The notes below the pieces were generated by a model. The model ran no database searches, was not told where the DNA came from, and worked only from the letters and a program-made list of their open reading frames with translations. Source: an uncultured Dehalococcoidia bacterium (GTDB lineage: Bacteria > Chloroflexota > Dehalococcoidia > Lucifugimonadales > UBA1127). From it: a stretch of DNA of 43,675 bases. Positions 24,462 through 42,856 of the stretch are shown piece by piece. The stretch's first letter is position 1, and each line of letters opens with the position of its first letter. A program made the translations under genes and the position numbers. The stretch is taken from positions 1 to 43,675 of the forward strand of contig CAJWXP010000018.1 of assembly GCA_913049785.1 (NCBI GenBank). The letters run 5' to 3'.

Positions 24462-25385
24462 CTAGCGCTTTGCCCAGGCTGGTGGCTCTGCACTGCGACC
24501 AGCCACCCAGTCTGCCATGTCACTGTCCAGCCCGCGATGCCATTCCCGGTTCAACTCGTCTGAGACGTTGACCGTTATCTTGCCCAGGCCGGCGATCTCC
24601 ATCTCCATGACATCGCCGTTCTGGATGGGGCCAAGGCCCTGGTGGTTAGTGCCGGAGGCGATGAGGTCACCTGGATCAAGCTGCAAGATAGAAGTCAGCC
24701 ACTCGATCATCTTGGGGATCTTGTGGCCCATGTCGCTCGTGTTGTAGTCCTGTCGTATCTCACCGTTGACCCACAAGCGCACCTGGAGGTTCTGGGCGTC
24801 TGCTATCTCGTCGGCTGTGACCAAGTAGGGCCCCATGGGGCCGAAGGTATCGTGCGATTTCATCCACAAGAAGCTGGTGGGATGGAGACCTCTGGCGGAT
24901 ACATCGTTGAAATTGACGTAGCCAAAGATGTGGTCATACGCGTCTTTCTCCGAAACGTTGGCGGCTGTCTTGCCGATGACGACGCCAAGCTCTGCCTCGT
25001 GGTGGAACACGGCGGCCTGGTGCGCTGCGGGAAGCACCACAGTCTCGCCCTCGCCGATGACGGACTCCGGTGACTTCAAGAAGCCGTTGAGGGGCTTGGG
25101 TTCACTCAATGCGCCGTTCTCGAAGTAGTTGGCTGCCATTGCAACGATCTTGCCAGGCCGCGGTAGCGGAGGACGCAGGTGCACCTGGTCCATGGGAATC
25201 GGCTGGACTTTGCCGGCGATCTCCTTGATACGTGCTCTGTATGTGCCCTCAAAGTCGGCAATGACCGCGTTGATCATATCCTGGGGAGTTGGGGCGTTGA
25301 TCTCCGTCAGGGATTCAGACAGGTTGTACACCTGATCGTCTTGATACAGCCCTAACTGATAGTTGTTGTACATCACCAGCTTCAT
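24462..25385 (-). CDS. Fumarylacetoacetate hydrolase (FAH) family protein, copy 1
   Basis: FAH-family enzymes hydrolyse, decarboxylate or isomerise beta-keto acids from aromatic breakdown, using a divalent metal. The 307-residue protein has a divergent N-terminal domain (about residues 1-75) and the conserved C-terminal barrel. The metal-binding FHHEAELGVVIGKTA (ExE pair), FGYVNFNDVSARG, GDLIASGTNHQGLGP and DGDVMEMEIAGLGKI are all seen. The usual NDVSARD reads NDVSARG. It follows a clear paralogue by 53 bases. Candidate reactions in this context are oxaloacetate decarboxylation or a hydratase step; these are inferences. Confidence 0.85.
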   Translation of the reverse strand: MKLVMYNNYQLGLYQDDQVYNLSESLTEINAPTPQDMINAVIADFEGTYRARIKEIAGKVQPIPMDQVHLRPPLPRPGKIVAMAANYFENGALSEPKPLNGFLKSPESVIGEGETVVLPAAHQAAVFHHEAELGVVIGKTAANVSEKDAYDHIFGYVNFNDVSARGLHPTSFLWMKSHDTFGPMGPYLVTADEIADAQNLQVRLWVNGEIRQDYNTSDMGHKIPKMIEWLTSILQLDPGDLIASGTNHQGLGPIQNGDVMEMEIAGLGKITVNVSDELNREWHRGLDSDMADWVAGRSAEPPAWAKR

Positions 25386-25438
25386 GACAGTTCCCTTTCT
25401 CCTGGGCGAGCGTTGTAGCTTTGGACTAGCCTGCTAGA

Positions 25439-26338
25439 TTACCCACGCATCCTATCGGCCATAGCCTCGTCTACCCCGCGAGCCCATTTCCGCTTCCTTG
25501 GCTCAGAGACATTGACGGTCAACCTGCCAAGGCCAGGGGTCTCACGCTCTACAACGTCTCCGTCTTGCAGCGAACCAAGGCCCTGATGGTTGGTGCCCAG
25601 CGCGACGACATCGCCCGGGTTCAATGTAGTGATGGAGGAGAGCCACGCAAGGGTTTTGGGGATGGAGTGGCCCATGTCACTGGTGCTGTAGTCCTGGTTT
25701 AGGCTTCCGTTGACCCAGAGCTTCACGTTGGTGTCCTGGGGGTTGGGAACTTCGTCAGCGGTCACCAGGTAGGGCCCCATAGGTGCAAAGGTGTGATACG
25801 ACTTGGACTGAAGGAACACATCCGAGCCCTTTGGTCCAAGACCTCTGGCGGATACGTCGATGAAGTTGGTGTAGCCGAATACGTAGCTGTATGCTTCATC
25901 TTCTGAGATGTTCTTGGCCTTTTTGCCGATGACCAGCCCCAGTTCTGCCTCATGATGGAAGATATCAGCGTCGTCCGGAGGAATCTGGATCGTTTCACCG
26001 TTGCCGATCACTGCACTGGGGTTCTTGAGGAATCCGTTGATGGGCCTAGCCTCTTTCAGGGTGCCGTTCTCCAGGTAGTTGGCAGCCATGCAGAGGATCT
26101 TGCCGGGCTTGGGGATAGGCGCACGGAGTTGGACATCTTCTATGGGAGTGCCTGGCATGTCGAGCATGTTGCGTTCCAGGCGGAGTTTGTAGCCATCCCA
26201 CTTCTCAATGAGCCTGCACATGTAGTCGCCGGGGCCCACACGAGGGATCTCCTCAAGGGTCAATGTCATGTCAATGACCCGGGTCTCATCCTTGTTCAAG
26301 ACTCCTAGCCTGTAATCGTCAAAGAAAACCAGCTTCAT
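25439..26338 (-). CDS. Fumarylacetoacetate hydrolase (FAH) family protein, copy 2
   Basis: A 299-residue paralogue of the neighbouring gene with the same layout. Residues about 1-75 form a small N-terminal domain. The C-terminal barrel has FHHEAELGLVIGKKA, FGYTNFIDVSARG, LNPGDVVALGTNHQGLG and DGDVVERETPGLGRLTV. Copy 2 has Ile in place of the Asn of NDVSAR, so the metal-site neighbourhood differs between the copies. A TAGGAG lies 8 bases upstream of the ATG. It sits 25 bases after the first LigJ-like gene and is probably in the same transcript. The divergence suggests different substrates rather than simple dosage. Confidence 0.85.
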   Translation of the reverse strand: MKLVFFDDYRLGVLNKDETRVIDMTLTLEEIPRVGPGDYMCRLIEKWDGYKLRLERNMLDMPGTPIEDVQLRAPIPKPGKILCMAANYLENGTLKEARPINGFLKNPSAVIGNGETIQIPPDDADIFHHEAELGLVIGKKAKNISEDEAYSYVFGYTNFIDVSARGLGPKGSDVFLQSKSYHTFAPMGPYLVTADEVPNPQDTNVKLWVNGSLNQDYSTSDMGHSIPKTLAWLSSITTLNPGDVVALGTNHQGLGSLQDGDVVERETPGLGRLTVNVSEPRKRKWARGVDEAMADRMRG

Positions 26339-26363
26339 GCGTTGTCTCCTAGCTCGACTGCTT

Positions 26364-27368
26364 TTACTTCAGATAGTTCTTCAGCCGGGGATAGACCTTG
26401 AGGACGTTGCCTTCAAAGAGCTTCGTCCGGTCCTCGTCCGTCAGCCAATCGATGTTGTCGACAGTGGGCTTGATGTCGTCGAAGTAGCGCCCGGTTTCCG
26501 GGTCGATGGCGTTCACGGCGCCGATCATCTCCGAGGCGAACAACACGTTATCGATGCCTGCTACCTTCAGCAGCAACTCAAGGCCATTCTGGTCGTAGAT
26601 AGCTGTGTCGAAGTAGATCTTCTTGATGAACTCGTCGAAGGGTTGGAAACCATCGCGAATGGCGATGCCACGGAACCGTCCGTACTGGTAGGGGATTGCA
26701 CCGCCACCGTGCGGGACTATGATCCGGAGGTCCGGGAAGTCCTGGAACACGGTGGATTGGTGTAGCTGGACGATGGAAGTGGTGTCCGCGTTCATGTAGT
26801 GAGAACTGGTGCTGTGGAAGCTGGGGTTGCAGGTGGCGCTCACGTGGATCATGGCGGGCACGTCCAACTCAACCAGCTTCTCGTAGAAGGGATACCACCA
26901 GTCCTTGTCGCTCAGGGGCGGGTCTGTCCAGAAACCACCTGAGGGGTCCGGGTTCATAACGCAGCCAACAAAGCCCATCTCGTTAACGCATCGCTCCAAC
27001 TCCGCAATGGCAGCCTTGGGCGGAACGCCCGGGGACTGAGGCAGTTGGCATACCGGGACAAAAATATCCGGGTACAGACTGATGACCCGGGCGATCAGAT
27101 CATTGCAGTGTTGGGTCCAGTAGAGGCTTATCTTCTCACCACCGAAGTGGTGACCCATGGACGAGGCTCTGGGAGAGAAGAACATCTTGTCTGTACCACG
27201 CTCACGCAGCCGCTTGATCTGCCCGTTCTCCAGGGTCTCCCGAATCTCGTCGTCGCTGACCTTGATGGAGCCTTTGACCGGCCTGGCCAGCTCCGCGATC
27301 TGACGGGATCGCCACGCATCAATCGCCGGTGGCAGTGTGGTGTAGTGCCCGTGGCTATCTATGATCAT
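26364..27368 (-). CDS. LigJ-like amidohydrolase, tandem copy 3 (most diverged of three)
   Basis: Amidohydrolase_2 superfamily (TIM barrel, metal-dependent). The 334-residue protein has the metal-binding HGH at residues 6-8, MIHVSATC with His175, PHGGGAIPYQYGRF and FASEMIGA. A Glu in that last motif, where decarboxylases such as ACMSD have Asp, is the feature of 4-oxalomesaconate hydratase LigJ. Hydration of a ring-cleavage product is therefore more likely than amide hydrolysis. It shares the QSPGV, WTDPP and RLKNYLK patterns with the next two genes but differs across the middle. AAGGGA precedes the ATG. Confidence 0.82.
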   Translation of the reverse strand: MIIDSHGHYTTLPPAIDAWRSRQIAELARPVKGSIKVSDDEIRETLENGQIKRLRERGTDKMFFSPRASSMGHHFGGEKISLYWTQHCNDLIARVISLYPDIFVPVCQLPQSPGVPPKAAIAELERCVNEMGFVGCVMNPDPSGGFWTDPPLSDKDWWYPFYEKLVELDVPAMIHVSATCNPSFHSTSSHYMNADTTSIVQLHQSTVFQDFPDLRIIVPHGGGAIPYQYGRFRGIAIRDGFQPFDEFIKKIYFDTAIYDQNGLELLLKVAGIDNVLFASEMIGAVNAIDPETGRYFDDIKPTVDNIDWLTDEDRTKLFEGNVLKVYPRLKNYLK

Positions 27369-27396: not shown

Positions 27397-28410
27397 TTAC
27401 TTCAGGTAGTTCTTAAGCCGAGGGTAGACCTTCCGAGCGTTGCCCTCAAATATCTTGGCCTTGTCCTGTTCACTGAGGCCTTGGACGGCGTCGACATAGA
27501 TCTTGGTGTCTTCATAGTATTGCTCGGTGTCAGGGTCAATCTGATCCCTCACGGCGCCGATCATCTCCGTTGCGAAGAGGATGTTGTCCGCCGGTATGAC
27601 GTCCGTCAGGAGGTCAATGCCACGCTGGTGATAGACGCAGGTGTCAAAGAACACGTTGTCCATCAGATGGTCTTTCAACGGCGGCTTCCCCAACGCTTGG
27701 GCGATGCCACGATAGCGACCCCAGTGATAGGGGACCGCACCGCCACCGTGGGGGATGACGAACTTGAGGGTTGGGAAGTCTTTGAAGAGGTCACCCTGGA
27801 TCATCTGCATGAAGAACGTCGTGTCGCCATTGATGTAGTGGGCGCCTGTCCCATGGAAGTTAGGGTTGCAGGACATGCTGGAGTGGATCATGGCGGGGGT
27901 CTCAAACTCCACCATCTTCTCGTAGATCGGATACCACCATTTGTCCTGCATCGGCGGGTCCGTCCAGTAGCCATCGGATGGGTCTGGGTTAAGGTTGAAG
28001 CCAACACAGCCCAACTCGTTGACGCAACGCTCCATCTCCTCAATGCAGGTCTCAGGTGACACGCCTGGAGACTGGGGAATCTGGCAGACGGGGATAAAAC
28101 TTTCCGGGAAGAGGTCAGAGACCCGCTTCACCAGGTCGTTTACCGTCCGCGTCCACTGAAGGCTGGTTGCTGCATCGCCGTAGTGGTGCGCCATGCCGCC
28201 TGCGGTGGGAGAGAAAAGGGCCACATCCGTACCACGGGCCTGTTGCAGCTTCAACTGTCCGTTGATGATCGTTTCCCGAATTTCATCGTCACTAATGGTC
28301 AGGGTGTCTGTGAAAGGAACCCCCGGCTTGAACTCTTCAATCTGCTTGTTCCGCCATGCCCTTAGCTGCCGCGGCGCAGTTGTGTAGTGACCGTGTATAT
28401 CGATGATCAT
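27397..28410 (-). CDS. LigJ-like amidohydrolase, tandem copy 2
   Basis: A 337-residue member of the same subgroup, very close to the next gene: long identical blocks include the segments around GGMAHHYGDA, MIHSSMSCNPNFHGTGAHYI and GDTTFFMQMIQGDLFKDFPT. Metal ligands are in place: HGH at residues 6-8, His in MIHSSMS, PHGGGAVPYHWGRYRGI and the Glu of FATEMIGA. It ends with the shared tail YPRLKNYLK. It is separated from both neighbours by about 25-30 bases, each with its own ribosome-binding site, consistent with one transcript made by gene duplication. It probably hydrates a dicarboxylic enol or keto acid as LigJ does; the substrate is unproven. Confidence 0.83.
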   Translation of the reverse strand: MIIDIHGHYTTAPRQLRAWRNKQIEEFKPGVPFTDTLTISDDEIRETIINGQLKLQQARGTDVALFSPTAGGMAHHYGDAATSLQWTRTVNDLVKRVSDLFPESFIPVCQIPQSPGVSPETCIEEMERCVNELGCVGFNLNPDPSDGYWTDPPMQDKWWYPIYEKMVEFETPAMIHSSMSCNPNFHGTGAHYINGDTTFFMQMIQGDLFKDFPTLKFVIPHGGGAVPYHWGRYRGIAQALGKPPLKDHLMDNVFFDTCVYHQRGIDLLTDVIPADNILFATEMIGAVRDQIDPDTEQYYEDTKIYVDAVQGLSEQDKAKIFEGNARKVYPRLKNYLK

Positions 28411-28435: not shown

Positions 28436-29446
28436 TTACTTCAGGTAGTTCTTCAGTCGCGGGTAGACCCTGCGGGCATTGCCTTCAAAGATCTTGGCCT
28501 TGTCTTCATCACTGAGGCCAGGGGCGTTATCAACATAGGGCTTGGTATCGTCGTAGTAGCGATCAGTACGGACATCAATGCCTCGTACTGCGCCGATCAT
28601 CTCTGACGCGAACAGGATGTTATCCGCAGGGAGGACATCAGCCATGAGGTCAATCCCCCGCTGGTGGTAGACGCAGGTGTCAAAGAAGATGTTGTCCATC
28701 AAGTGCTCTTCCAGGATGGGCTTGCCCATGTCCTGGGCGATACCGCGATATCGACCCCAGTGGAAGGGAACTGCGCCGCCGCCGTGGGGGATGACGAACT
28801 TGATGGTTGGGAAGTCCTTGAAGAGGTCACCCTGGATCATCTGCATGAAGAAGGTTGTATCCCCGTTGATGTAGTGTGCTCCCGTGCCATGGAAGTTGGG
28901 GTTGCAGGACATACTGGAATGGATCATAGCGGGCACTTCAAGCTCTGCCATCCGCTCATAGAGCGGATACCACCACTTGTCTTGCATGGGGGGATCGGTC
29001 CAGTAGCCGTCTGAGGGGTCAGGGTTCACGTTGAGGCCTACAAACCCCATCTCGTTGACGCAGCGATCCAACTCTTCAATGCAGTTCTCCAGGGAAACGC
29101 CCGGAGACTGGGGGATCTGGCAGACCGGAATGAAGCTGTCCGGAAAAAGGTCGCAGACTCGCTTGATCAGATCGTTCACTGTCCGCGTCCAATGGAGGCT
29201 CATGGCTGCATCACCGTAGTGGTGAGCCATACCGCCAGCGGTGGGGGAGAACAGCGCCACATCTGTACCGCGGTCCTGTTGAAGCTTCAACTGGCCATTG
29301 GTGATGGTCTCGATGATCTCATCGTCAGTGATGGTGAACGTGTCCTTGAAAGGGACACCTGGTTTGAAGTCTGCAATCATCTTGTTACGCCAATCCCTTA
29401 GCTGGGGCGGAGCTGTGGTGTAGTGTCCGTGGATATCAATGATCAT
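28436..29446 (-). CDS. LigJ-like amidohydrolase, tandem copy 1
   Basis: The first of the three tandem amidohydrolase genes in transcription order, 336 residues. Metal-site residues: His6 and His8 (DIHGHY), His176 (AMIHSSMS) and Glu282 (FASEMIGA), close to the His6/His8/His178/Glu284 set known for LigJ. The Glu rather than Asp argues for the hydratase subgroup. AAGGAG lies 7 bases before the ATG. It follows the first Rieske gene and its terminator, so it should have its own promoter; none is convincing in the 100-base gap. Nearly all differences from copy 2 are conservative, pointing to a fairly recent duplication. Confidence 0.83.
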   Translation of the reverse strand: MIIDIHGHYTTAPPQLRDWRNKMIADFKPGVPFKDTFTITDDEIIETITNGQLKLQQDRGTDVALFSPTAGGMAHHYGDAAMSLHWTRTVNDLIKRVCDLFPDSFIPVCQIPQSPGVSLENCIEELDRCVNEMGFVGLNVNPDPSDGYWTDPPMQDKWWYPLYERMAELEVPAMIHSSMSCNPNFHGTGAHYINGDTTFFMQMIQGDLFKDFPTIKFVIPHGGGAVPFHWGRYRGIAQDMGKPILEEHLMDNIFFDTCVYHQRGIDLMADVLPADNILFASEMIGAVRGIDVRTDRYYDDTKPYVDNAPGLSDEDKAKIFEGNARRVYPRLKNYLK

Positions 29447-29616: not shown

Positions 29617-30879
29617 CTAGGCTACGGTGATGTCGTCCAGCACTTCCTTATCGTCAGAGAAGAAGACATCCCTTGGGAGCACGGCTCCACCGGAACGGAC
29701 CTTGTACACATCCGCGTGGGTAGCTGCGTAGGGCTCTATGCCCTCTTCAAGGTCACGGGCGGCCTTGGTCAGTGTCTTTCGCATGGCGATGATAGCGGTG
29801 TCGCTGGTGCCCAGATGCTCGTGCGTCCGGTCAATGAGCTTACCCATGGTCTCCATCATGGCGGAGTCCTGTGCACGGCCACTATCTGTGGGTATTCCTG
29901 TGTACGTCTCCTTACGCTGAATCTCTCGATCGATCATGTAGTCGTTCGATAGATTTTGCTTGGGATACCAGGTGCCGGGGATCAGGTCGCGGCAGGCGTA
30001 TATCTCTCGAGACTCATCGTCCGTTGGTGGGCGGTCCTTGTGCCAGAGCACCAGGATGACCCAGGTGTTCTCGTTGTCCATGGGGTACCAGATGCCTAGC
30101 CGGGTGGTTCCGTGGGGCTCCCGGGGGATCATGGAGTAAAAGGGGTACAACCACCGGCTGATGCGCCAGTAGTAGCTATCTTCTTCTGCTTCTCGGCGTG
30201 CGCCGATGAGAAGACCGTGTTCCTTCTCACTCACAAAGAAACGTGCGGCCTTGTCCTTGTATTGATACCTGCCGCCAAGGGTAGTAGCTGTTGCCGCTTT
30301 CTCTTCTGAGTCCAGCCGACTGTGCAGCATCGCCGCGTGGGTGGTATCGATCTCACCCTCGATGGACTGGATGTAGTTGCACTCATAGACCAGCTTGGCG
30401 ATCTTGCGGTTCTCAGCCGGAACGTCCATCCACTCCATATGGGGAAGCTCAGCCATCTTGTCTGCGGGTCCCATGAACGCCCAGACGATGTCGCCCTTCT
30501 CCACACAGGGATATGCGGTGATCTTCACCTTGTCCTTGAAGTTGCTTTCGGCGGGTTCAGAGGGCATGTCCACGCAATCGCCGTTCACGTCAAACTTCCA
30601 GCCGTGGTACACGCAGCGCAGGCCACATTCCTCGTTTCGACCGAAGAACAAGCTGGCACGACGATGCGGGCAGTAGTTATCTACAAGTCCAACCTTCCCG
30701 TCAGTGTCCCGGAAGGCGATCAGCTTCTCACCCAGCAATGTCACTCGAACGGGGTCGCTGTCAGGTCCAGGTAGTTCCTCAGACAGCAAAGCGGGAATCC
30801 AGAACCTGCGCATGAGGTTCCCCATTGGGGTCCCCACATCTGTGTTACAGAGGAAATCGTTTTCTGCTGGTGTTAGCAT
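29617..30879 (-). CDS. Rieske [2Fe-2S] ring-hydroxylating oxygenase, alpha subunit (copy A)
   Basis: Non-heme iron oxygenase of the phthalate/vanillate type that hydroxylates or O-demethylates aromatic acids with O2. The 420-residue protein has an N-terminal Rieske domain with Cys70-His72 (CPHRRASLFFG) and Cys89-His92 (CVYHGWKFD). The catalytic domain has the mononuclear iron motif EIDTTHAAMLH (D-x2-H-x4-H). AAAGG lies before the ATG. No ferredoxin or reductase gene is next to it, so electrons must come from elsewhere. A paralogue lies directly upstream. By context it may prepare methoxylated or phenoxy aromatics for ring cleavage; the substrate is not determinable from sequence. Confidence 0.9.
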   Translation of the reverse strand: MLTPAENDFLCNTDVGTPMGNLMRRFWIPALLSEELPGPDSDPVRVTLLGEKLIAFRDTDGKVGLVDNYCPHRRASLFFGRNEECGLRCVYHGWKFDVNGDCVDMPSEPAESNFKDKVKITAYPCVEKGDIVWAFMGPADKMAELPHMEWMDVPAENRKIAKLVYECNYIQSIEGEIDTTHAAMLHSRLDSEEKAATATTLGGRYQYKDKAARFFVSEKEHGLLIGARREAEEDSYYWRISRWLYPFYSMIPREPHGTTRLGIWYPMDNENTWVILVLWHKDRPPTDDESREIYACRDLIPGTWYPKQNLSNDYMIDREIQRKETYTGIPTDSGRAQDSAMMETMGKLIDRTHEHLGTSDTAIIAMRKTLTKAARDLEEGIEPYAATHADVYKVRSGGAVLPRDVFFSDDKEVLDDITVA

Positions 30880-30982: not shown

Positions 30983-32284
30983 CTAACGGAGCCGTTCGCC
31001 GCGCTTTGTGGTCTCACCGGCACCTGCGGCCACCAACCAAGGATCCTCGTCCGGGCCGATGATGATCTCTTCAGACCGGATCTTTTGGGTCGGGATGCTC
31101 GGGTCCAACCCGGGAGGCTCAATGCCCTCCTGGAGGTTCCGGGCCATAGAAAGGAGCATCTGCCTGCACCGGATGATGGCTGCATCTCCGCCGTAAAGGT
31201 GCTCCTTGGAGCGGTCATAAATGGGTCCCATGGTCTCAATAAGGGCGTAATCCTGCTCTGGAATGGGCCAGATGCCTGCCAGAATAGTGTTCTTCTGTGC
31301 CCAGCGATCAATCATGTAGTCGTTGTCCATCCTCTTGAGCCGCTTCTTGGGATCAGCGGGGTCCATCAGGGCGCCTTGCTCAATAGCGGCCCTGCGGTCA
31401 GAGGCTGTGAATGGTTCATTGACGTTGTATCGGATGCCCACCCGCTGATTGTTCTCATCGTCAATGGGCACCTGGATCAACACACCGCCGTTCATCCCTT
31501 GTGATGCGATAAATGCTGTGTATGGCAACACGAAGCAATTGGTGCGGATGTACTTGTTGCCCGCGTCCGTTGGGCGATCCGCAATGAGGCGGAAACCGTA
31601 GTCCGTGTCCTGGACATCCACCCGCGCAAAGCGATACTTCGCTCTGGTGTACAGGGCAAACTTGGATGACGGGTAACCCGGCTTATCGGTCTCAAGGTCT
31701 ACTGGCACCTTGTCTTGATGATAAACGTGCAGCGTACCCAGGTGGGTGGAGTCTATGTTCCCTTCCATGCTCTGAAGGTAATTGCACTCAATAGGAACCC
31801 GGAAGGCGATCACATGATCGGCTGGGAGGTTGTTGAAGATGTAATTGGGAGGTGGGGGTTGCTTGTCCTTTGGCCCCATGTATGCCCAGATGACCCCAGC
31901 CGACTCTACAGTTGGGTAGGAAGTGGCGTGAACTTTGTCTTTGTAGTTGCTTTCCGGCAGATCCGATGGCATATCCACACAGTTGCCATCTACATCGAAC
32001 TTCCAGCCGTGGTAGATGCACATGATGCCGGATTCCTGGTTGATGCCAAAGAACAGGGAAGCGCCCCGGTGCGGACATTGTTCAGCCAAGAGTCCAACCT
32101 TTCCGTTGGTGTCACGGAACGCGATCAGGTCTTCGCCGAGCAAACGCGCGCGAATTGGTGCACAGTCTGGCTCCGGCAGTTCGTCAGAGATGATGAGAGG
32201 GTGCCAGTATCGGCGCATCACGTCACCCATAGGCGTCCCAGGGCCAACTCGACAAATCAGTTCATTTTCTTCTGGAGTAAGCAT
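30983..32284 (-). CDS. Rieske [2Fe-2S] ring-hydroxylating oxygenase, alpha subunit (copy B)
   Basis: A 433-residue paralogue of copy A with the same spacing of the Rieske ligands: Cys70, His72 (CPHRGASLFFG), Cys89 and His92 (CIYHGWKFDVDG). The catalytic iron motif is NIDSTHLGTLH. The central part of the substrate pocket (about residues 200-300) differs strongly from copy A, so a different substrate is likely. GGGGAGG precedes the ATG by 7 bases. A good minus-strand promoter lies about 140 bases upstream. It appears to be the first gene of a transcript that includes copy A, 103 bases further on. Confidence 0.9.
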   Translation of the reverse strand: MLTPEENELICRVGPGTPMGDVMRRYWHPLIISDELPEPDCAPIRARLLGEDLIAFRDTNGKVGLLAEQCPHRGASLFFGINQESGIMCIYHGWKFDVDGNCVDMPSDLPESNYKDKVHATSYPTVESAGVIWAYMGPKDKQPPPPNYIFNNLPADHVIAFRVPIECNYLQSMEGNIDSTHLGTLHVYHQDKVPVDLETDKPGYPSSKFALYTRAKYRFARVDVQDTDYGFRLIADRPTDAGNKYIRTNCFVLPYTAFIASQGMNGGVLIQVPIDDENNQRVGIRYNVNEPFTASDRRAAIEQGALMDPADPKKRLKRMDNDYMIDRWAQKNTILAGIWPIPEQDYALIETMGPIYDRSKEHLYGGDAAIIRCRQMLLSMARNLQEGIEPPGLDPSIPTQKIRSEEIIIGPDEDPWLVAAGAGETTKRGERLR

Positions 32285-34472: not shown

Positions 34473-34573
34473 AGTGTTCCCTCGCGTACGTCTAAATATT
34501 GTTGCTTGCACGTGACGGTTGCAGTCTATCCAGCCGGGGAGAACCTGGCAAGGCGAGGGTGTGCTTTATCCCC

Positions 34574-34579: not shown

Positions 34580-34616
34580 GGCGAAGCCAATACAAGCATG
34601 GAAATCTGGAGGAATG

Positions 34617-35383: not shown

Positions 35384-35722
35384 ATGACGCAGCCAAGGAT
35401 TCGGCACATCGCGGTCAACGTTGAGGACCGGGAAGCAAGCGCAAACTACTACGAGAGCGTCTTTGGCATGGAGATCAAACTGCGTGGCGAGAACGGTACC
35501 ATCTACCTCTCTGACGGCTACGTGGGTTTGGCGCTGATCAATTTCCCGGACAGGCCATGGGGGATAAACCACTTTGGCTTCCACGTCGATAGCGTTGATG
35601 CAATCGAAGAACAAGCTAAGACAACCAGGCGGAGCCCGGTCGGCGGCGCTGTGGCGGAGAGCTGGATACCGGACCCTGAGGGCAACCGGGTAGACGTTAC
35701 GGAAGAGTGCTGGCCCGTTTAG
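35384..35722 (+). CDS. VOC-superfamily (glyoxalase/extradiol-type) protein 1
   Basis: A 112-residue metal-dependent vicinal oxygen chelate protein. Candidate ligands: His in RHIAVNVED, His in NHFGFHVDS and Glu in VDVTEE. It is shorter than its two relatives downstream because a C-terminal loop region is reduced (only TTRRSPVGGAV stands between the motifs). A GGAGGGCGG ribosome site precedes the ATG. It follows the SDR gene closely and converges with the deazaflavin-type gene. VOC proteins include dioxygenases, isomerases and epimerases; one domain of this size would need to dimerise to form a complete site. Confidence 0.8.
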   Translation: MTQPRIRHIAVNVEDREASANYYESVFGMEIKLRGENGTIYLSDGYVGLALINFPDRPWGINHFGFHVDSVDAIEEQAKTTRRSPVGGAVAESWIPDPEGNRVDVTEECWPV

Positions 35723-35727
35723 CCCAG

Positions 35728-36096
35728 CTACTCCATCAACTCCACCAGCACCAATGGGCTCTCGGCAACCCAGACGTCGATGTCCATGTGCGACATGCGA
35801 GACTCGGTGCCCTTCATCTTCGCAAACACATCGCGCTTGGTGGCCGGGTCTGTTATCGGTGTAGCCCAGGCGGCTACGTCGCGGACGAGGCTCTGCTTGA
35901 AGTGGAATGTGAAACCCGGGTTCGCCAGCAGGTTGGCATTCCATGAACGTTTCCCCGGCATACTGCTGAGGTAGACGGTGTCATCAATGACGTGAAACCA
36001 TATCTCGATGCGACGTGGCTGGCCGCTGCTCCGACCGATCGTCGTGATGTCGATGACCTCATCGAGTTGAAGTGCGCTCCGAATCGCGTCGCCCAT
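35728..36096 (-). CDS. Deazaflavin-dependent nitroreductase (DUF385/Ddn)-family protein
   Basis: A 122-residue split-barrel protein with the Ddn pattern: TTIGRSSGQPRRIEIWFHVI (the TxGRxSGxPR signature), then YLSSMPGKRSWNANLLANPG. Family members use coenzyme F420 or fill related roles. The start ATG at 36096 is chosen because GGGGAG lies 6 bases upstream; the open frame continues upstream without any such site. It ends 5 bases from the stop of the convergent VOC gene. If F420 is made by this organism, this enzyme could reduce quinones or enones from aromatic breakdown. The substrate is unknown. Confidence 0.8.
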   Translation of the reverse strand: MGDAIRSALQLDEVIDITTIGRSSGQPRRIEIWFHVIDDTVYLSSMPGKRSWNANLLANPGFTFHFKQSLVRDVAAWATPITDPATKRDVFAKMKGTESRMSHMDIDVWVAESPLVLVELME

Positions 36097-36166
36097 CCCG
36101 TTCTCCCCAATCACCTGATTGCTTGCCACTGTACCTTTCACTGCCAGCTTCTGTCCATGTGGTGCG

Positions 36167-36195
36167 TTGACGTTGCATAATGTGCTCACTACACT
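36167..36195 (+). promoter_or_regulatory. Promoter of the VOC 2-VOC 3 pair
   Basis: TTGACG (36167-36172), 17-base spacer, TACACT (36190-36195). It lies between the divergent Ddn-like gene and VOC 2, giving a leader of about 36 bases. Confidence 0.5.
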
Positions 36196-36237
36196 ACGTA
36201 CAATGCGCGAGGAATGAGCACGTTTGGAGGGGAAGAG

Positions 36238-36642
36238 ATGACCAGAATTCGACATATCGCTCTAGCAACGCAAAACGTGGAAGCAACGGCGAAGTTCTAC
36301 ATCGATGGCCTTGGTCTCAAGGAAGTCGGTAAGGTGAATTCCCTCACTTCAGAGGGGGTTTACCTCAGCGATGGTCACGTCAACTTAGCCATTCTGAAGT
36401 TCAAGTACGACGACCCTGCCACGACGGAGGGTGAGCTTCGCTACACCGGCATCCACCACTTTGGGGTTCAGATAGAGAATATGGACGAAGCGCGAGCGAA
36501 GATCGAAAGCGCTGGCGCGGTGCATCGCCCCTACCCCGGAACTGAAGCGATGGAGGCTCGAGGGAACGTTGAGGTCAAGTTCAGCGGCCCGGACGGCGTA
36601 ACGGTAGACCTATCCGAGACTGGCTGGGCAGGAGCCTCATAA
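36238..36642 (+). CDS. VOC-superfamily protein 2
   Basis: A 134-residue single-domain VOC protein. Ligand candidates: His in RIRHIALATQ, His in GIHHFGVQIEN and Glu in VDLSETGW. The strand pattern KFYIDGLGLKEVGKVNS with YLSDGHVNLAILKFK is typical of glyoxalase-fold proteins. The ATG at 36238 has GGAGGGG about 8 bases upstream; an earlier ATG (36214) would put this site inside the coding region. It is followed after 35 bases by a close paralogue, so the two form a duplicated pair behind one promoter. Confidence 0.82.
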   Translation: MTRIRHIALATQNVEATAKFYIDGLGLKEVGKVNSLTSEGVYLSDGHVNLAILKFKYDDPATTEGELRYTGIHHFGVQIENMDEARAKIESAGAVHRPYPGTEAMEARGNVEVKFSGPDGVTVDLSETGWAGAS

Positions 36643-36677: not shown

Positions 36678-37094
36678 ATGGCAAGGATCAAGCACATAGC
36701 AATCGCAACGCAGGACCCGGACGCAACGGCTAAGTTCTACGTGGAAGGCCTGGGGCTTGAGATAGCAGGCAAGGTCAACTCCGTAGCTGCTGAGGGGTAC
36801 TACCTCACGGACGGCTACATCAACCTGGCCGTGCTCAAGTTCAAGAACGACGATGCTGCCGATACCGAAGGCGCGCCAAGGCACACAGGAATCCACCACT
36901 TCGGTTTCAAGGTGGAGGGCATGGAAGAGGCCCAAGAACAGATCCTCAGCGCTGGCGCGACAAAGAAGCAGAGCGCTATCACCGATGCCAACGGCCACGC
37001 TCGTACAGGCAACGTAGAAGTGAAGTTCACCGGCCCTGACGGCATAACCGTAGATCTCTCTGAGACCGGCTGGGCAGGCGCGTCTAAAGACTAA
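36678..37094 (+). CDS. VOC-superfamily protein 3
   Basis: A 138-residue paralogue of VOC 2 with the same landmarks (IKHIAIATQDPDATAKFYVE, TGIHHFGFKVEGMEEA, VEVKFTGPDGITVDLSETGW), so the His/His/Glu metal set is retained. It differs mainly in the loop before the last strand (KKQSAITDANGHARTG). AGGCGGAGGGAG precedes the ATG. Its stop codon overlaps the end of the convergent LOG-like gene by 4 bases, with no terminator between. Heterodimer formation with VOC 2 is possible but not shown. Confidence 0.82.
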   Translation: MARIKHIAIATQDPDATAKFYVEGLGLEIAGKVNSVAAEGYYLTDGYINLAVLKFKNDDAADTEGAPRHTGIHHFGFKVEGMEEAQEQILSAGATKKQSAITDANGHARTGNVEVKFTGPDGITVDLSETGWAGASKD

Positions 37095-37723
37095 TCGTCC
37101 GGGGCACCGTCTGGGTCATGGCCTTCCATGGCCTTGAGGTACTTGGGGAAGATCAGTTCCATATACGATCGTTCCAGTGTTTCTAGGAGATGGAGAGGGT
37201 CGCTGTCGTAGCAGACGATTCCACCCGTTTCTTTGTCGATCATCTCAATGATGGGCTTGAGATGGCTGGTGATGCCGCCTGTGCCCTCTAACACCCCGAT
37301 GACCTTTGCCTCGTCGTATGCGATGGCGAACTCGCCCAGGGTTCCTGAGCGTCCGCCGACGAAGACCACGACATCACAGCTGCGTATGTTCTCTACTTCT
37401 CTGCCCATCAGGCCGCTGCCGGTGTAGATGATGGCGTCATACCCTTTGGTTGGGGAGTTGTACTTGAGAATGTGCCCTTCCATGTTCAGGGCGGGGGACA
37501 CGCCTACAACCACACCACCCTTGGATTTGGCCCCTTTCACCGCTTCCTGCGGGTAGCCCGGACACGCGCCGGTGATCAGAACACAGCCCTTTTCAGCGAT
37601 GGCTTGGCCCAGTGTGTAGACCATTGTGCATATCTCCGGGGGTAGATGCCCTCCGGCGGAACCCATGACGCCGACGGTCATTTTGGGGAAGATGTCTCCA
37701 GGGGCGGTCGTTTCGGTTGCCAT
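37091..37723 (-). CDS. LOG/TIGR00725-like SLOG-fold protein
   Basis: A 210-residue Rossmann-like protein of the SLOG group. The N-terminus has VGVMGSAGGHLPPEICTMVY, then a nucleotide-binding loop ITGACPGYPQEAVKGAKSKG, and the family's loop FVGGRSGTLGEF in place of PGGxGTxxE. Relatives release cytokinin-type nucleobases from ribotides or bind nucleotides; many are of unknown function. GGAGG is 6 bases before the ATG. It lies downstream of the RraA operon hairpin. A role in aromatic catabolism is not obvious, so it may just be a resident of the island. Confidence 0.75.
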   Translation of the reverse strand: MATETTAPGDIFPKMTVGVMGSAGGHLPPEICTMVYTLGQAIAEKGCVLITGACPGYPQEAVKGAKSKGGVVVGVSPALNMEGHILKYNSPTKGYDAIIYTGSGLMGREVENIRSCDVVVFVGGRSGTLGEFAIAYDEAKVIGVLEGTGGITSHLKPIIEMIDKETGGIVCYDSDPLHLLETLERSYMELIFPKYLKAMEGHDPDGAPDD

Positions 37724-37862: not shown

Positions 37863-38519
37863 TTACTTCTCGTCGCGGGTCTGAAGGGCGTGATACTTGA
37901 ACTTCTCCCGTGCTGCATCAAGCCTTGAACCCTTGGCGATCTCTGCACGGATGTTGTCCTCGGCAGACTCGATCTGCTTGCCGATCTTCAGCACTTCGTC
38001 AAAGCGCTCCTGTGGGATGACGAGGATGCCATCAGCATCGCCGATGATCACATCGTTCGGGTTGACGTGGACTTCGCCCAGAGAGCAGGCCTCGTTGATG
38101 GCCACACACTCAACGCGGTCTTTGCCCGTGCGCATGGTGTTGCCTCGACTAAAGATGGGATAGCCCAACTCCAAGCTGCGGGAAGCGTCACGGCAGACGC
38201 CGTGAATGACCGTTCCGGCCAGCTTGTTCCGGTGGGACATGATGGTCAGGATATCGCCCCAAACTGTCGCATTGGGCTTGCCTTCATTGTCCAGAACCAC
38301 TACCTGGCCCTCTTTGACCTCGTCGATGTAGTCGCCGACGTTGCCCGGGTTCACGTTAGCGGACGGGATGGTCTTGACGGTGAATGCCCGCCCAGCCAGC
38401 GTGAAGTTCCGGTCCAAGGGCATGATGCCGACAGCCTGGGCGTTGATGCCCAGCCTGTCACATGCATCGCTCACGGTGGTGGTTCCCAGATCCAACATCT
38501 CTTGAAGTTCTTTTTCCAT
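37863..38519 (-). CDS. RraA-family protein, LigK-like aldolase candidate (copy 2)
   Basis: RraA-fold proteins include 4-hydroxy-4-methyl-2-oxoglutarate/4-carboxy-4-hydroxy-2-oxoadipate aldolase (LigK/ProA type), which cleaves the LigJ product to pyruvate and oxaloacetate, and also RNase E inhibitors. The 218-residue protein has TTTVSDACDRLGINAQAVGI, DEVKEGQVVVLDNEG, WGDILTIMSHR and HGVCRDASRSLELGYPIFSR. The Arg-Asp pair used for substrate and metal binding is kept in GVCRD, with His where the consensus has Asp (IDGxxRD). It starts 2 bases after the previous gene ends, so the pair is co-translated. The aldolase role is favoured by the neighbouring LigB- and LigJ-type genes. Confidence 0.78.
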   Translation of the reverse strand: MEKELQEMLDLGTTTVSDACDRLGINAQAVGIMPLDRNFTLAGRAFTVKTIPSANVNPGNVGDYIDEVKEGQVVVLDNEGKPNATVWGDILTIMSHRNKLAGTVIHGVCRDASRSLELGYPIFSRGNTMRTGKDRVECVAINEACSLGEVHVNPNDVIIGDADGILVIPQERFDEVLKIGKQIESAEDNIRAEIAKGSRLDAAREKFKYHALQTRDEK

Positions 38520-38521: not shown

Positions 38522-39196
38522 TTACTTCCTCTCCAACATACTTTCATAATTTGAGCCCATCACTTCGCTGATAGGCTTGCCAGACAGAACATCCTTGGTC
38601 ATCAATGCTTCCCTGTTGGCGATGTCCTCGGCAGCGGAAACAGCCTCTTCCTCATGCTCTGCGGAGATGAACACCACGCCGCTACTATCAGCAATGACTA
38701 GGTCTCCGGGGTGTACCCAGACACCACACATCTCTATGGGCTCGTTGCAGGACTCCTCGATGATGCGTGTTCGAGCGGTGACCTGGACTCCAGCGCGACC
38801 GAAGACCGGCAGGCCTAACTCACGGCTCTCATCCACGTCGCGTACAGCACCATCGACGATGACGCCAGCCACGCCTTTGACTACTGCCCCGTTGGAGAGG
38901 ATGCCGCCCCAGGCGGCGCAGTCCAACCGGCCTCTGTGGTCGATCACGATGATGTCGCCGGGCTTGGACGCTTCGATGGCCGCTGCGCCCAGGTGCCTGG
39001 TGGACTTCTCGCCGCCGAAGGCCTTCATGCGAGTGGTGACCACACGACCGACGATCTTTTGGGTGACGGTCAGTGGCTTGATGCCGATGATCGACCCTTT
39101 AAGCCCCAACCGGTCCAGAGCGTCCGACGCTGCACAGGCATCCACTTTGGAAAGCCTGGCGACCAATGGGTCTTGGGTCGTCTCTTTTGTAGCCAT
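38522..39196 (-). CDS. RraA-family protein, LigK-like aldolase candidate (copy 1)
   Basis: A 224-residue RraA-fold protein and first gene of the pair. Landmarks: VDACAASDALDRLGLKGSII, IVIDHRG, the WGGILSNGAVVKGVAGVIVD region followed by GAVRDVDESRELGLPVFGR, and DLVIADSSGVVFI. It fits the aldolase consensus (IxDGxxRD) better than copy 2. The ATG at 39196 has GGGGG 7 bases upstream; an in-frame TTG (39217) is less likely. A hairpin-forming repeat (39260-39278) lies about 65 bases upstream. It probably performs the last step (4-carboxy-4-hydroxy-2-oxoadipate to pyruvate and oxaloacetate); this is inference from family and context. Confidence 0.8.
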   Translation of the reverse strand: MATKETTQDPLVARLSKVDACAASDALDRLGLKGSIIGIKPLTVTQKIVGRVVTTRMKAFGGEKSTRHLGAAAIEASKPGDIIVIDHRGRLDCAAWGGILSNGAVVKGVAGVIVDGAVRDVDESRELGLPVFGRAGVQVTARTRIIEESCNEPIEMCGVWVHPGDLVIADSSGVVFISAEHEEEAVSAAEDIANREALMTKDVLSGKPISEVMGSNYESMLERK

Positions 39197-39259
39197 AGGA
39201 ATACCCCCAAATGCCAAAGATTTGGGGGATAGTGTAACGCCTTGGGACGCGGAACGCTA

Positions 39260-39351: not shown

Positions 39352-40422
39352 TTACGTCCACTGAACCATGCCCCAGCCGCCGCCACTGCCGGCGTTGGTG
39401 CGATATACGGGCTCGTAACCTACCTTCTCTGCCTTCAAGTGCTGAAGAGCTCCAGAAATGGTGACCCAATTCAGGGTCTCTGAAGCTGCGGAGTGCAGCC
39501 GATGGCGCGGGAGGTTCATCAGGATATCAGGGTCACCGTCTACCATGCCCTTGATGGCTGTGCGATCCAGCTCCTCGTCCACCGTGAAGTGGCTGAGGCC
39601 GCCGGAAGTCATGACAGCAACCTTGGTTCCCTTGCCGCCGCCCCAGGACTCGATCGCTCCACGGAGCGCCTGTCCAAAGTTGAAGCAGCGCTTGGCAGAG
39701 GGCTGGTTGGGCGGGTAGCAGGTGTTCTGCCAGATCGGCACAATGGGAATGAGGTTTTCTTTCATTACACGCTTCACTACAAAGCTCCATGCATGGGGAA
39801 GGCCGAATGGGCGAGGAGCGGTAACTCGGGTGGTCTCTATCTCGCCATTGGCTGACGGATAACGGTGCCCAACTGTTCCGCCAGGGTTTTCCCGAAGATA
39901 CTTGGAATGAGAAACGTCAAACTCATGGTCAATCATATATTCAATGATGTGTCGAGCCAAGTCTGTTTGTACGGGAATTTCTAATTCTGTCTGAGGATAG
40001 CCAGCTGCAGAGGCCTTGGCTGCGTCTGAAGCGTCCGGTGCTACCTTGCGGGGGTAGTACTTGATGGAATCACCCCAGTACACCAAGAACGCTGGCATGT
40101 TGTCTTCAAACATCATCTCATCCTGGTCGTCACCTACCATCACCGCGATGTCCGGCTTGAAGCTCTTGTAGGTCTCCGATAGTTGGGTGATTGCAGCATT
40201 AAGGTTCTCATGCTGCTTTTTGTGGACCTCATATTGGTTGAGGTCTGCAATCTTTGGGTTGGCTCGCTCAAGGGCTTCCTCAAAGCTGAGGATCTCGCCT
40301 GAGGGAGCAAAGCAGAGTTCCTTGTTGCGCTGGTCATTCAGTGCGTGGTTGGCCCACAGTTCTGCGGGCTGCATCAGCATAGGGCTATGGGAAGTCCCGA
40401 TACCCAATCCAATTTCTGCCAT
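39352..40422 (-). CDS. LigB-superfamily class III extradiol dioxygenase, copy 1
   Basis: Non-heme Fe(II) ring-cleaving dioxygenase-like protein of 356 residues, similar in layout to 3-O-methylgallate 3,4-dioxygenase/gallate dioxygenase-type members. His12 lies in GTSHSPML (first iron ligand position). GGLSHFTVDEELD holds the catalytic His, and SAASETLNW the Glu expected as third ligand. Where LigB has its second iron His, this protein reads GDDQDE (Gln100). CYPPNQPS with KRCFNFGQALR is a further family block. GGAGGAG precedes the ATG. No separate small LigA-type subunit gene is visible. It lies downstream of the LigJ-like gene and has its own promoter. Confidence 0.82.
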   Translation of the reverse strand: MAEIGLGIGTSHSPMLMQPAELWANHALNDQRNKELCFAPSGEILSFEEALERANPKIADLNQYEVHKKQHENLNAAITQLSETYKSFKPDIAVMVGDDQDEMMFEDNMPAFLVYWGDSIKYYPRKVAPDASDAAKASAAGYPQTELEIPVQTDLARHIIEYMIDHEFDVSHSKYLRENPGGTVGHRYPSANGEIETTRVTAPRPFGLPHAWSFVVKRVMKENLIPIVPIWQNTCYPPNQPSAKRCFNFGQALRGAIESWGGGKGTKVAVMTSGGLSHFTVDEELDRTAIKGMVDGDPDILMNLPRHRLHSAASETLNWVTISGALQHLKAEKVGYEPVYRTNAGSGGGWGMVQWT

Positions 40423-40533: not shown

Positions 40534-41529
40534 TTAGCTTATGGAGAAGCGCGGGAATGCCTTCTTGGCTGTGTCCTCAAAGACGTTCTTCTTGTCCTTG
40601 TCAGAGAGCCAGTCAATGGACTCAATGACGGGCTTCAAGTCATCAAGCCACACGCCGGTGTCCGGGTGTTGGCTGGAACCGGAGCCAGGGTTTTCTGTGC
40701 CGAACATGCAGCGATCCGTGCCAACGATCTGGAACAGGAGGTCCAGGCCCTCCTTGTTGTAGAGCACGGCGTCAAAGTAAAGCTTCTTCAATGAATCGTC
40801 GAAGCTCTCCACGTTCTTGGAGCGCCAGCGATGTGCACGCCATCGGCCGATCTGGTAAGGAACGGAGCCGCCGCCGTGGCACATGATGATCTTCAAATCC
40901 GGAAATGTGTCCAGAGTCTTGCGGTCCATCAGGGACATGATGCCAATGCCCTCTTCAGTGATGAAGTGGTTGGAATAGGTCTCCCGATTGTTCCGACAGG
41001 TTGCTGTGTGGATGAGAGCGGGAACGTCCAGCTCAATCATCTTCTCGTACAGCGGGTACCAGTACTCGTCGCCCATGGGAGGCATGTTGACGTCCAGGCC
41101 CTCTGAGGGGTCCGGATCGATCATAATGCCGACGAATCCCAACTCCTTGACGCAGCGCTCCATCTCATCGAATACGATGTTGACGGGCTGGCCCCATACC
41201 TGGGGAAGGCCGCAGACTCCGCGATACCGGTCCGGATAGTAGTCAATGGACTGCTTGATGGCGTCATTGTTGGCCTTGCAGAAGTCATCGACGATGCTGA
41301 AAAGCGGATCAGAGTGCATGAGCTGGAAGGGGCGCGGGGAGAGGAACTGGATGTCTGTGCCCACTTCGTCGAGCTTCTTGATGTGGTTGTCCACTATGGG
41401 CTTCATCCGCTCGTCAGAGAGCTTGAGGACGCTGCGCCCCCGGTGGATTCGGCTTGAGAGCAGGCCAGACTTGAAGGCCATGAGTTCCGGTGGGCTGTTG
41501 AGGTGACCGTGAATGTCTATGATAGCCAT
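40534..41529 (-). CDS. 4-oxalomesaconate hydratase-like amidohydrolase (LigJ type)
   Basis: LigJ adds water to 4-oxalomesaconate in the protocatechuate 4,5-cleavage and gallate pathways. The 331-residue protein follows LigJ in length and landmarks: IIDIHGHLNSPPELMAFKSG with His7 and His9, TDIQFLSPRPFQLMHSDP, LPQVWGQPVNIVFDEMERC, His174 (ALIHTATC), MCHGGGSVPYQIGRWRAHRW and Glu279 (FGTENPGSG). These match the His/His/His/Glu metal set of LigJ. It is clearly diverged from the three tandem LigJ-like copies and is the best LigJ candidate here. GGGAG is 8 bases before the ATG, and a TTGACA-type promoter lies about 120 bases upstream. It is flanked by the two dioxygenase genes. Confidence 0.85.
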   Translation of the reverse strand: MAIIDIHGHLNSPPELMAFKSGLLSSRIHRGRSVLKLSDERMKPIVDNHIKKLDEVGTDIQFLSPRPFQLMHSDPLFSIVDDFCKANNDAIKQSIDYYPDRYRGVCGLPQVWGQPVNIVFDEMERCVKELGFVGIMIDPDPSEGLDVNMPPMGDEYWYPLYEKMIELDVPALIHTATCRNNRETYSNHFITEEGIGIMSLMDRKTLDTFPDLKIIMCHGGGSVPYQIGRWRAHRWRSKNVESFDDSLKKLYFDAVLYNKEGLDLLFQIVGTDRCMFGTENPGSGSSQHPDTGVWLDDLKPVIESIDWLSDKDKKNVFEDTAKKAFPRFSIS

Positions 41530-41676: not shown

Positions 41677-41706
41677 GGTGTGGGTGTTGGCCTGTGAAAC
41701 CTGGGA

Positions 41707-41769
41707 ACACTCCAAACCAATAGAAAAGGGGCGTGGATAACACGTCCCTTTTCTATTGGTTTGGAGTGT
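41707..41769. terminator. Very long (29-bp) hairpin between dioxygenase copy 2 and the LigJ-like gene
   Basis: Bases 41707-41735 pair with 41741-41769 along 29 positions with one G-U pair and a 5-base loop (GATAA). The inner part, AAAAGGG(G)CGTG paired with CACGTCCCTTTT, looks like a symmetric terminator with T4 on either strand. The outer 14 pairs lengthen it far beyond a normal terminator. It begins 11 bases past the stop codon of dioxygenase copy 2 (41780). Confidence 0.75.
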
Positions 41770-41779
41770 GGCAGTAAGA

Positions 41780-42856
41780 CTACTTCCCGTTGCCGTTCCA
41801 ACGGACCATGCCCCAACCACCTCCGGTGCCTGCGAGGGTGCGATATACCGGCTCGTAGGCCAAGATCTCCGCTTTCAGGTGCTCTGAGGCGCCCGCTGTG
41901 GCAACCCAGTTGCGTGTCTCTGACGCTGCAGAGTTGAGGCGGTGCTTCGGGAGGTTGGACAGCGTTTCGCCGTCGTTCTCCACCATTGCTTTCAACGCGG
42001 CTCGGTCCAGCTCCTCGTCAACGACGAAGTGGCTCAACCCGCCGGACGCAATGACCACCACGCGCGCGTCAGTGTCCCATGACTCTACTGCCTTGCGGAC
42101 TTGCTGACCAAATGCGAAGGTGCGTTTTGGTGACGGCTGGTTGGGTGGATAGCAGGTGTTCAAGGAGATGGGCACGATTGGCACGGGCTTGTTGTCCATA
42201 AGCCGCTTAACCACAAAGCTGAAGCCGTGGGGCATACCGAAGTTGCGTGGCTCTGTGACCCGCACGTACTCTGACTCACCGTCCGGCGTTGGGTACCGAC
42301 GTGCGATGGTGCCGCCGGATTCCTCACGCAGGTACTTGGAGTGAGAAACGTCGAACTCGTTGTCGATCATGTGCTCAATGATGTGTCGGCCCAACTCCGC
42401 GTTCACGGGCACGTCCATGGAGACATCGCCGTAGCCCCAAGCCATCGCTTTGACGGCGGGTGGTGCGTCATCTGCGGGTACACGGGCGATGAGGGGCATG
42501 GTGTTGCCCCAGTAGACCGAGAACATGGGCATGTTGTCTTCAAACATGACCTCGTCCTGGTCATCGCTGATGATGATGACGGCGTCTGGCTTGGCGTCTG
42601 CCAGGCTCTTGGCCAACTCATCGATAGCCTTGGTGAGGTTGGCATGCTGCACCTTGAAGTGCTCTATATCCACGTGCTTTGCAATGTCCGGATTTGCCCG
42701 TTCCAGGGCTTCTTCATAGGAGTAGACGAGTCCTTCCGGAGGAAAGACCAATTCTCGGTTTCGTGCATCGTTTTCACCATGCACTGCCCAGAGTTCTGGC
42801 GGCTGCGCCAGCATTGGGCTATGGGACGTGCCGAGGCCCAAGACGATCTTAGCCAT
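41780..42856 (-). CDS. LigB-superfamily class III extradiol dioxygenase, copy 2
   Basis: A 358-residue paralogue of copy 1 that keeps the same landmarks: His12 in GTSHSPML, SDDQDEVMFEDNMPMF with Gln100 at the LigB His position, DVSHSKYLREESGG, CYPPNQPSPKRTFAFGQQVR, GGLSHFVVDEELD and SAASETRNW. The mid-region around PADDAPPAVKAMAWGYGDV differs from copy 1, so the substrate may differ. GGGGAGGG is 7 bases before the ATG. It is the first protein gene downstream of the 16S rRNA gene on the same strand. Ring cleavage of a gallate-like catechol is the best guess; evidence is family and context only. Confidence 0.82.
   Translation of the reverse strand: MAKIVLGLGTSHSPMLAQPPELWAVHGENDARNRELVFPPEGLVYSYEEALERANPDIAKHVDIEHFKVQHANLTKAIDELAKSLADAKPDAVIIISDDQDEVMFEDNMPMFSVYWGNTMPLIARVPADDAPPAVKAMAWGYGDVSMDVPVNAELGRHIIEHMIDNEFDVSHSKYLREESGGTIARRYPTPDGESEYVRVTEPRNFGMPHGFSFVVKRLMDNKPVPIVPISLNTCYPPNQPSPKRTFAFGQQVRKAVESWDTDARVVVIASGGLSHFVVDEELDRAALKAMVENDGETLSNLPKHRLNSAASETRNWVATAGASEHLKAEILAYEPVYRTLAGTGGGWGMVRWNGNGK

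Follow-up and report, generated by a model that had tools for sequence, protein, structure and literature searches.

A conserved gene island in a SAR202-related Dehalococcoidia genome suggests LigY-type cleavage of aromatic acids and carries LigB-like proteins with a glutamine at a presumed iron-ligand position

The window analysed here is one whole contig of 43,675 bases (G000:C18) from a SAR202-related member of the Dehalococcoidia, whose genome is a 2.15-Mb draft given as 93% complete. Positions 24462–42856 hold an island of catabolic genes for which a sequence-only reading had proposed gallate-type ring cleavage. Every gene family that this reading named there is confirmed by Pfam, with two LigB, four Amidohydro_2, two RraA-like and two FAA_hydrolase matches, two proteins combining Rieske and LigXa_C domains, one SDR, one Abhydrolase_10 and three VOC/Glyoxalase proteins. 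The island opens with a minus-strand run, its intergenic gaps 25–175 bases, that leads from two FAH-family genes (PF01557), FAH1 (24462–25385), a candidate dienol/enone isomerase or hydrolase, and FAH2 (25439–26338), through LigJ1 (26364–27368), LigJ2 (27397–28410) and LigJ3 (28436–29446) to two LigXa_C-type Rieske oxygenases (29617–30879 and 30983–32284) and a large alpha/beta hydrolase (32460–34472; Abhydrolase_10, PF20091). After a short mixed-strand middle part of SDR, VOC, F420-like and LOG-like genes comes a second minus-strand run, made up of RraA1 (37863–38519), RraA2 (38522–39217), LigB1 (39352–40422), a LigY-type amidohydrolase gene (40534–41529) and LigB2 (41780–42856).

The four amidohydrolases, out of 24 Amidohydro_2 matches in the host genome, are of two kinds. 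In phmmer comparisons with PDB sequences, LigJ1, LigJ2 and LigJ3 match LigJ at 409, 491 and 497 bits, against 248, 196 and 214 bits for LigY, and a 52-row maximum-likelihood tree places them in a 100/100 clade with the LigJ proteins of SYK-6 and R. palustris. LigJ2 and LigJ3, tandem copies that are LigJ-type hydratases by sequence, are 62–63% identical to R. palustris LigJ (62% for LigJ3); LigJ1, a deeper member of the clade and a hydratase candidate, carries HGH/HGGG/SE motifs whose residues we take to be those of the metal site. The 40534–41529 protein, by contrast, matches LigY best (5vn5/6e6i; 313 bits), with LigJ next at 211 bits, falls outside the LigJ clade in the LigY-type part of the same tree, and is 46% identical to SYK-6 LigY versus 32–34% to LigJ. 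Its scores and tree position rule out a LigJ identity: of the four LigJ or LigJ-like hydratases proposed earlier, three stand, and the fourth becomes a candidate C–C hydrolase of meta-cleavage products. Passages of two papers list LigY as the hydrolase of the OH-DDVA meta-cleavage compound, not a hydratase (PMC12997858, PMC6874591), and a table in the first lists ligJ as the 2-keto-4-carboxy-3-hexenedioate hydratase and ligU as the 4-oxalomesaconate tautomerase (PMC12997858).

LigB1 and LigB2 are class III extradiol dioxygenase-like proteins that current family models leave unplaced. Against the NCBIfam gallate dioxygenase model NF009904 they score 37.5 and 46 bits, where the cut-off is 412 and a plasmid gallate dioxygenase used as control reaches 799; both also fall far under the protocatechuate dioxygenase models, whose beta-subunit model is passed by a plasmid LigB control. 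Both proteins are 356–358 residues long and have no LigA-model match, whereas the control GalA has such matches (best at 294–411) and DesB aligns to LigB2 only over residues 2–280 of its own chain. With the controls passing, we reject on these model scores the identification of either protein as a gallate or protocatechuate dioxygenase, and the gallate-type enzyme of the sequence-only reading is unsupported. The AlphaFold model of LigB2 (pLDDT 92.6) predicts a class III (LigB-superfamily) extradiol dioxygenase fold, with DesB (Z 29.1, root-mean-square deviation 2.7, 257 aligned) and LigAB (Z 28.5, 2.6, 259 aligned) tied as the nearest solved structures and MhpB at Z 26.4.

The active site departs from this family in one position. 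We take the iron ligands of LigB to be H12, H61 and E242; in a profile alignment Gln100 of LigB2 falls opposite the His of the NDH/PDH motif in Comamonas LigB, a gallate dioxygenase and E. coli MhpB, so that LigB2 keeps H12 and E313 of the two-His-one-Glu set and has Gln in place of the second His. H12, Q100, E102, H276 and E313 are invariant in 24 diverse aligned members, and the Gln recurs in 42 of the 43 aligned LigB rows that lie near LigY genes (two further rows were removed by a length filter), locus L162 having His, as well as in all eight LigB proteins of the host genome. In a LigB tree of 42 rows, from which near-copies were removed and in which own_C8 was kept, 32 of the 33 Gln rows fall into a single group supported 98/93. 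The long-branch Gln row own_C4b lies outside it, so the Gln label needs two changes; just 6% of the bootstrap trees allow a single one. Current models leave the Gln-type group unnamed, as all six Gln-type proteins tried against NCBIfam stay below every cut-off. No description of a His-to-Gln change at the LigB iron ligand was found in the literature by a search that required three of four phrases, a weak test. The change in a dioxygenase-like active site is testable; were Gln-type LigB proteins active, the accepted iron site of class III extradiol dioxygenases would be widened. A separate LigB paralogue of the host genome (C8; L092, 9818–10825), not among the 24 aligned members, lacks both the first and the catalytic His as well, with R, Q, V and E at the four site positions, and is perhaps a non-catalytic relative.

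The RraA-type aldolase candidates of the sequence-only reading are borne out by two RraA-fold proteins with recognisable motifs, the only RraA matches in the host genome. We take the letters of the two metal/catalytic motifs to be D-X20-R-D or G-X20-R-D-X2-E/D; RraA1 carries D-X20-R-D, and its partner RraA2 has G-X20-R-D followed by X2-E. That two such motifs exist is stated in an earlier paper (PMC5065237). Two high-scoring RraA genes occur together in 25 loci, and in every one of these a D-X20-R-D member is combined with a G-X20-R-D member, a count that excludes RraA open reading frames below 160 bits and concerns pairs, single-RraA loci (L108, L140, L150, L170 and others) lying outside it. 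An RraA tree of 58 rows, drawn without the near-copy rows L114, L131, L154, L166 and L167 (the L114 genome being kept as G011) and without rows outside 190–280 residues, resolves two groups, one of 22 rows that includes solved 3k4i (100/98) and one of 21 rows (100/100), each spanning several phyla. In loci that have a third RraA, this falls outside both groups, with 3noj, the solved HMG/CHA aldolase, and its motifs are mixed; the long branches of 3noj and 3k4i call for caution with the tree. Because the two subfamilies cross phyla and each of the 25 loci has one of each, the pair is old and not a recent copy. The idea that RraA2 is a dead copy is unsupported, as the protein retains the second motif and recurs in pairs; a division of labour within the pair is likely.

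Scanning public genomes with LigY-type proteins, we kept the best 80 of 525 loci, several on short contigs, with phylum labels read from the record titles. LigB lies within 5 kb of LigY in 43 of the 80 (28 of the 48 outside Chloroflexota), at least two RraA genes lie within 6 kb in 26 (21 of 48), and LigB occurs together with at least two RraA genes in 21 (16 of 48); given eight LigB genes in 2.15 Mb, we estimate that about 4% of genes would be expected to have a LigB within 5 kb. The core cassette LigY-LigB-RraA-RraA recurs in Acidobacteriota, Actinomycetota, Bacillota and Pseudomonadota, its carriers including Alicyclobacillus, Paraburkholderia, Pigmentiphaga, Modestobacter, Amycolatopsis and members of the Acidobacteriota, and a SAR202-VII-2 record (L114) reads LigY-LigB-LigB-RraA-RraA-RraA. 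In the Pigmentiphaga cassette LigY is 71% identical to SYK-6 LigY, and its LigB, about 3 kb off, is Gln-type. Independent tblastn searches of plasmids with LigY and with LigB2 returned many of the same plasmids of Bradyrhizobium, Rhodococcus koreensis, Aminobacter and Polymorphobacter, the two genes at most about 6 kb apart. No LigJ-type gene was told apart in the cross-phylum cassette; open reading frame layouts around high-GC neighbours were too noisy for flank annotation and were left unused.

Within the host's own genus, G002, G003 and G004 each carry the LigY-LigB-RraA and LigJ-FAH blocks on one contig, G002 and G004 with the blocks in different order and strand, and G001 has the LigY-LigB-RraA block and a LigJ pair on two contigs, FAH lying outside that comparison. 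Kept in this way across four genomes of the genus, the arrangement is more than chance, and the conservation of an aromatic-catabolic island in relatives, as previously claimed, holds for the blocks in three of them and for pieces in the fourth. Further afield, LigB2 has a match in 13 of 60 relatives (10 of 35 good-quality genomes) and none in G005, the sole other genus of the same family sampled; across the order, 19 of 197 genomes have a LigY-type match above 400 bits, divided by hand count into five of the window genus (host included), one of SAR202-VII-2's family and 13 of family f18. Among 385 genomes of one class, none has LigY above 59% identity. LigY, LigB and the RraA pair thus form an old core cassette found across phyla, which the LigJ, FAH, Rieske and Abhydrolase_10 genes joined in this genus. 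We advance more tentatively the wider proposal that LigB1 and LigB2 represent a group of class III extradiol dioxygenases, undescribed so far and spread over several phyla, whose iron triad has Gln in place of one His and which work in a cassette with an amidohydrolase-type C–C hydrolase and an obligate RraA pair whose RraA2 would be a catalytic or structural partner, not a spare copy.

The island recalls the SYK-6 cluster for DDVA, a lignin biphenyl, where a LigXa-type Rieske oxygenase, a dioxygenase gene and a LigY-type amidohydrolase likewise stand close together, LigZ being a LigB-superfamily protein too; the island differs in the 46% identity of its LigY and in the added RraA pair, LigJ-type and FAH genes. 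That ligXa, ligZ and ligY share one DDVA gene cluster is reported in a passage of PMC6874591. We read the island as catabolising methoxylated or hydroxylated aromatic acids by LigZ–LigY-type meta-cleavage, a reading to which we assign a probability of about 0.55. The LigXa-like Rieske oxygenases would produce a catechol-type acid by demethylating or hydroxylating the ring, and this acid LigB1 and/or LigB2, the latter with its predicted fold, would open; the LigY-type amidohydrolase, if it acts as its family does, would then cut the ring-opened product at a C–C bond, releasing an aromatic or other acid and a dienol resembling 4-carboxy-2-hydroxypenta-2,4-dienoate (CHPD). FAH proteins might convert the dienol to a 2-oxo-3-enoate, LigJ-type hydratases would add water to it, and RraA1, with RraA2, would split the 4-hydroxy-2-oxo acid to pyruvate and either pyruvate or oxaloacetate; the LigJ arm could also take a protocatechuate- or gallate-type product of the second LigB.

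LigJ hydrates a homologous 2-oxo-3-enoate, made by LigU. For the LigY-side product CHPD, a published scheme, seen in part, proposes hydration to 4-hydroxy-4-methyl-2-oxoglutarate and cleavage to two pyruvate by an RraA-family aldolase, and lists the SYK-6 hydratase for CHPD as not identified (PMC12673573). Taken together, this proposal and the LigJ/LigU chemistry would allow FAH, LigJ and RraA1 to carry either product through a lower pathway with no chemical step missing, and make the LigJ-like proteins candidates for that SYK-6 dienoate hydratase. The island is real and conserved, and its sequence is best read as that of a LigY-type meta-cleavage system with LigJ-type hydratases, a variant of the lignin-dimer and protocatechuate lower pathways.

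Several observations weigh against LigZ–LigY-type meta-cleavage. The two RraA proteins score 76.9 and 77.8 bits with the LigK model TIGR02798, whose cut-off is 304.5; LigB1 and LigB2, compared without a LigZ sequence, are not callable as LigZ orthologues; and the branches that join the window's LigY to SYK-6 LigY in the 52-row tree are weakly supported. With their Gln change, LigB1 and LigB2 could fail to bind iron in the usual way, and the part given to the FAH proteins is a guess. Among the 80 LigY-type loci, LigB is absent from the surrounding 5 kb in 37, the combination of LigB with two RraA is absent in 59, and at L162 the LigB adjoining LigY is His-type. On one Paraburkholderia plasmid, moreover, a Gln-type LigB lies with a LigJ-type gene, and no LigY-type gene was recognised in the 19-kb stretch seen; Gln-type LigB proteins may thus also work in a LigJ route, and LigB1 and LigB2 could feed LigJ.

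The plasmid also lends something to an alternative that we think unlikely, in which LigB1 and LigB2 are gallate, 3-O-methylgallate or protocatechuate-like dioxygenases whose product reaches 4-oxalomesaconate, is tautomerised (perhaps by an FAH protein) and is turned into pyruvate and oxaloacetate by LigJ hydration and RraA cleavage, which leaves the LigY-type protein as a side activity. Three LigJ-clade proteins and the place of DesB, tied with LigAB, as nearest fold to LigB2 agree with it; the NF009904 scores, the missing LigA-like domain and a cross-phylum cassette that ties LigB to LigY do not. The island shares its LigJ-clade trio and RraA-fold aldolase candidates with protocatechuate/gallate 4,5-cleavage (LigAB or GalA, LigU, LigJ, LigK), but its LigB and RraA proteins fall under the models of that pathway, and no LigC, LigI or LigU appears as a Pfam or NCBIfam match in the window, to which that search was limited. 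The sequence-only reading was right that no LigC-like or LigI-like gene is seen in the island, and overlooked both the LigY-type C–C hydrolase and the LigU/GalD-like tautomerase that a 4-oxalomesaconate route needs; as a whole it is partly supported.

It is rather improbable that two pathways, coupled or separate, were united in this genus, LigY-LigB-RraA serving one substrate and LigJ-FAH-Rieske another: the LigJ-FAH-Rieske block does form a minus-strand run of its own, block order and strand have changed in G002 and G004, and the core cassette of SAR202-VII-2 (L084) stands without a LigJ-type or FAH match in the 20 kb seen, yet both blocks occur together in G002, G003 and G004. Least probable is that Gln-type LigB proteins, instead of being dioxygenases, work without a metal or with a different one on some later intermediate, an idea suggested by the constancy of the Gln and by the further site losses of the C8 paralogue but opposed by the invariance of the other three site residues in all 24 members, the strong predicted match to a class III fold and the Rieske neighbours, which suit oxygenase chemistry.

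LigZ–LigY-type meta-cleavage bears on a group in which aromatic-gene expansions are already known (PMC6123686, PMC6946804): SAR202 group VII, which belongs to the same Chloroflexota order in the grouping used, resembles the host in its many Rieske and ring-cleavage genes. In the portions of the literature drawn on here, SAR202-VII-2 has 25 ring-cleaving dioxygenases, 30 ring-demethylating monooxygenases and a 4-oxalomesaconate hydratase, with no single complete reference pathway found (PMC6123686), and group VII has 1–62 ring-hydroxylating alpha subunits per genome (PMC6946804); the first SAR202 single-cell genomes gave an aromatic pathway that could not be fully reconstructed (PMC5395668), and some hadal Chloroflexi have complete phthalate, benzoate, fluorene and 4-chlorobiphenyl routes (PMC9088039). 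The account of SAR202-VII-2 lists gene families and, in the same portions and supplements aside, leaves the cassette undescribed; with that same scope, no description of a LigY-LigB-RraA cassette was found in the literature searched. Oxidation of resistant dissolved organic matter is a role proposed for SAR202 relatives, and the island names one compact, testable route by which aromatic rings of plant or humic type are predicted to be opened, shifting the likely chemistry from gallate-type to LigY-type cleavage.

The sequence-only reading had also pictured one pathway copied to accept related substrates. Paralogue identities run from 84% for LigJ2/LigJ3 through 65% for VOC2/VOC3, 60% for LigB1/LigB2, 56% for LigJ1/LigJ3, 53% for FAH1/FAH2 and 43% for the two Rieske oxygenases to 30% for RraA1/RraA2, a range that no single duplication explains; on these unequal values and the RraA tree we reject block duplication. 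One LigJ1 and one LigJ2/3 gene were seen in each of G001–G004, so the LigJ2/LigJ3 duplication seems to be recent, unless the other genomes have lost it.

As to the remaining genes, both Rieske oxygenases have intact cofactor and mononuclear-iron motifs, and the second is kept across the genus (in G002, G003 and G004, with a contig-end piece in G001). The host genome has 68 LigXa_C matches, several in close runs on contig C7 and some of them pieces of one gene. FAH1 has its best PDB match in the HpcE/HpaG isomerase-decarboxylase (180 bits), with maleylpyruvate hydrolase at 163 bits. The alpha/beta hydrolase, found in four relatives at 75–86% identity, probably starts at an ATG at 34472, the open reading frame list giving a GTG at 34511; its AlphaFold model (pLDDT 31.7) is useless for structure comparison. 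The middle part holds on the plus strand the SDR oxidoreductase (34614–35366, scanned as the open reading frame 34416–35366) and the VOC proteins 1 (35384–35722), 2 (36238–36642, scanned as 36214–36642) and 3 (36678–37094). On the minus strand lie two genes that the sequence-only reading left off its list: a peripheral F420/nitroreductase-family-like gene (35728–36255; PF04075, barely above cut-off) and a probably peripheral LOG/SLOG cluster 4 gene (37091–37723; PF18306), which adjoins RraA1, is present in G003 and was undetected in the examined stretches of G001, G002 and G004.

On the Paraburkholderia plasmid (L204, 9001–14219) the Gln-type LigB is annotated as hypothetical, and the LigJ-type gene is accompanied by an amidohydrolase weakly like lactonases and an aldolase/citrate-lyase-family gene, possibly an undescribed cleavage pathway. 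Elsewhere, a RidA-family gene adjoins the LigY-type gene on Novosphingobium, Sphingobium, Rhodococcus and Bradyrhizobium plasmids (L179, 13086–14830; L180, 11561–11950; L181, 11020–12738; L185, 3086–4830), close to genes whose annotation is RraA-family or menaquinone-methyltransferase-like, possibly a sign that these versions pass through an enamine or imine. Ahead of the island, a siroheme/heme biosynthesis run (9879–17067) encodes MerR- and AsnC/NirDL-like regulators, siroheme synthase, GlutR, HemC, a methylase-HemD fusion and HemB.

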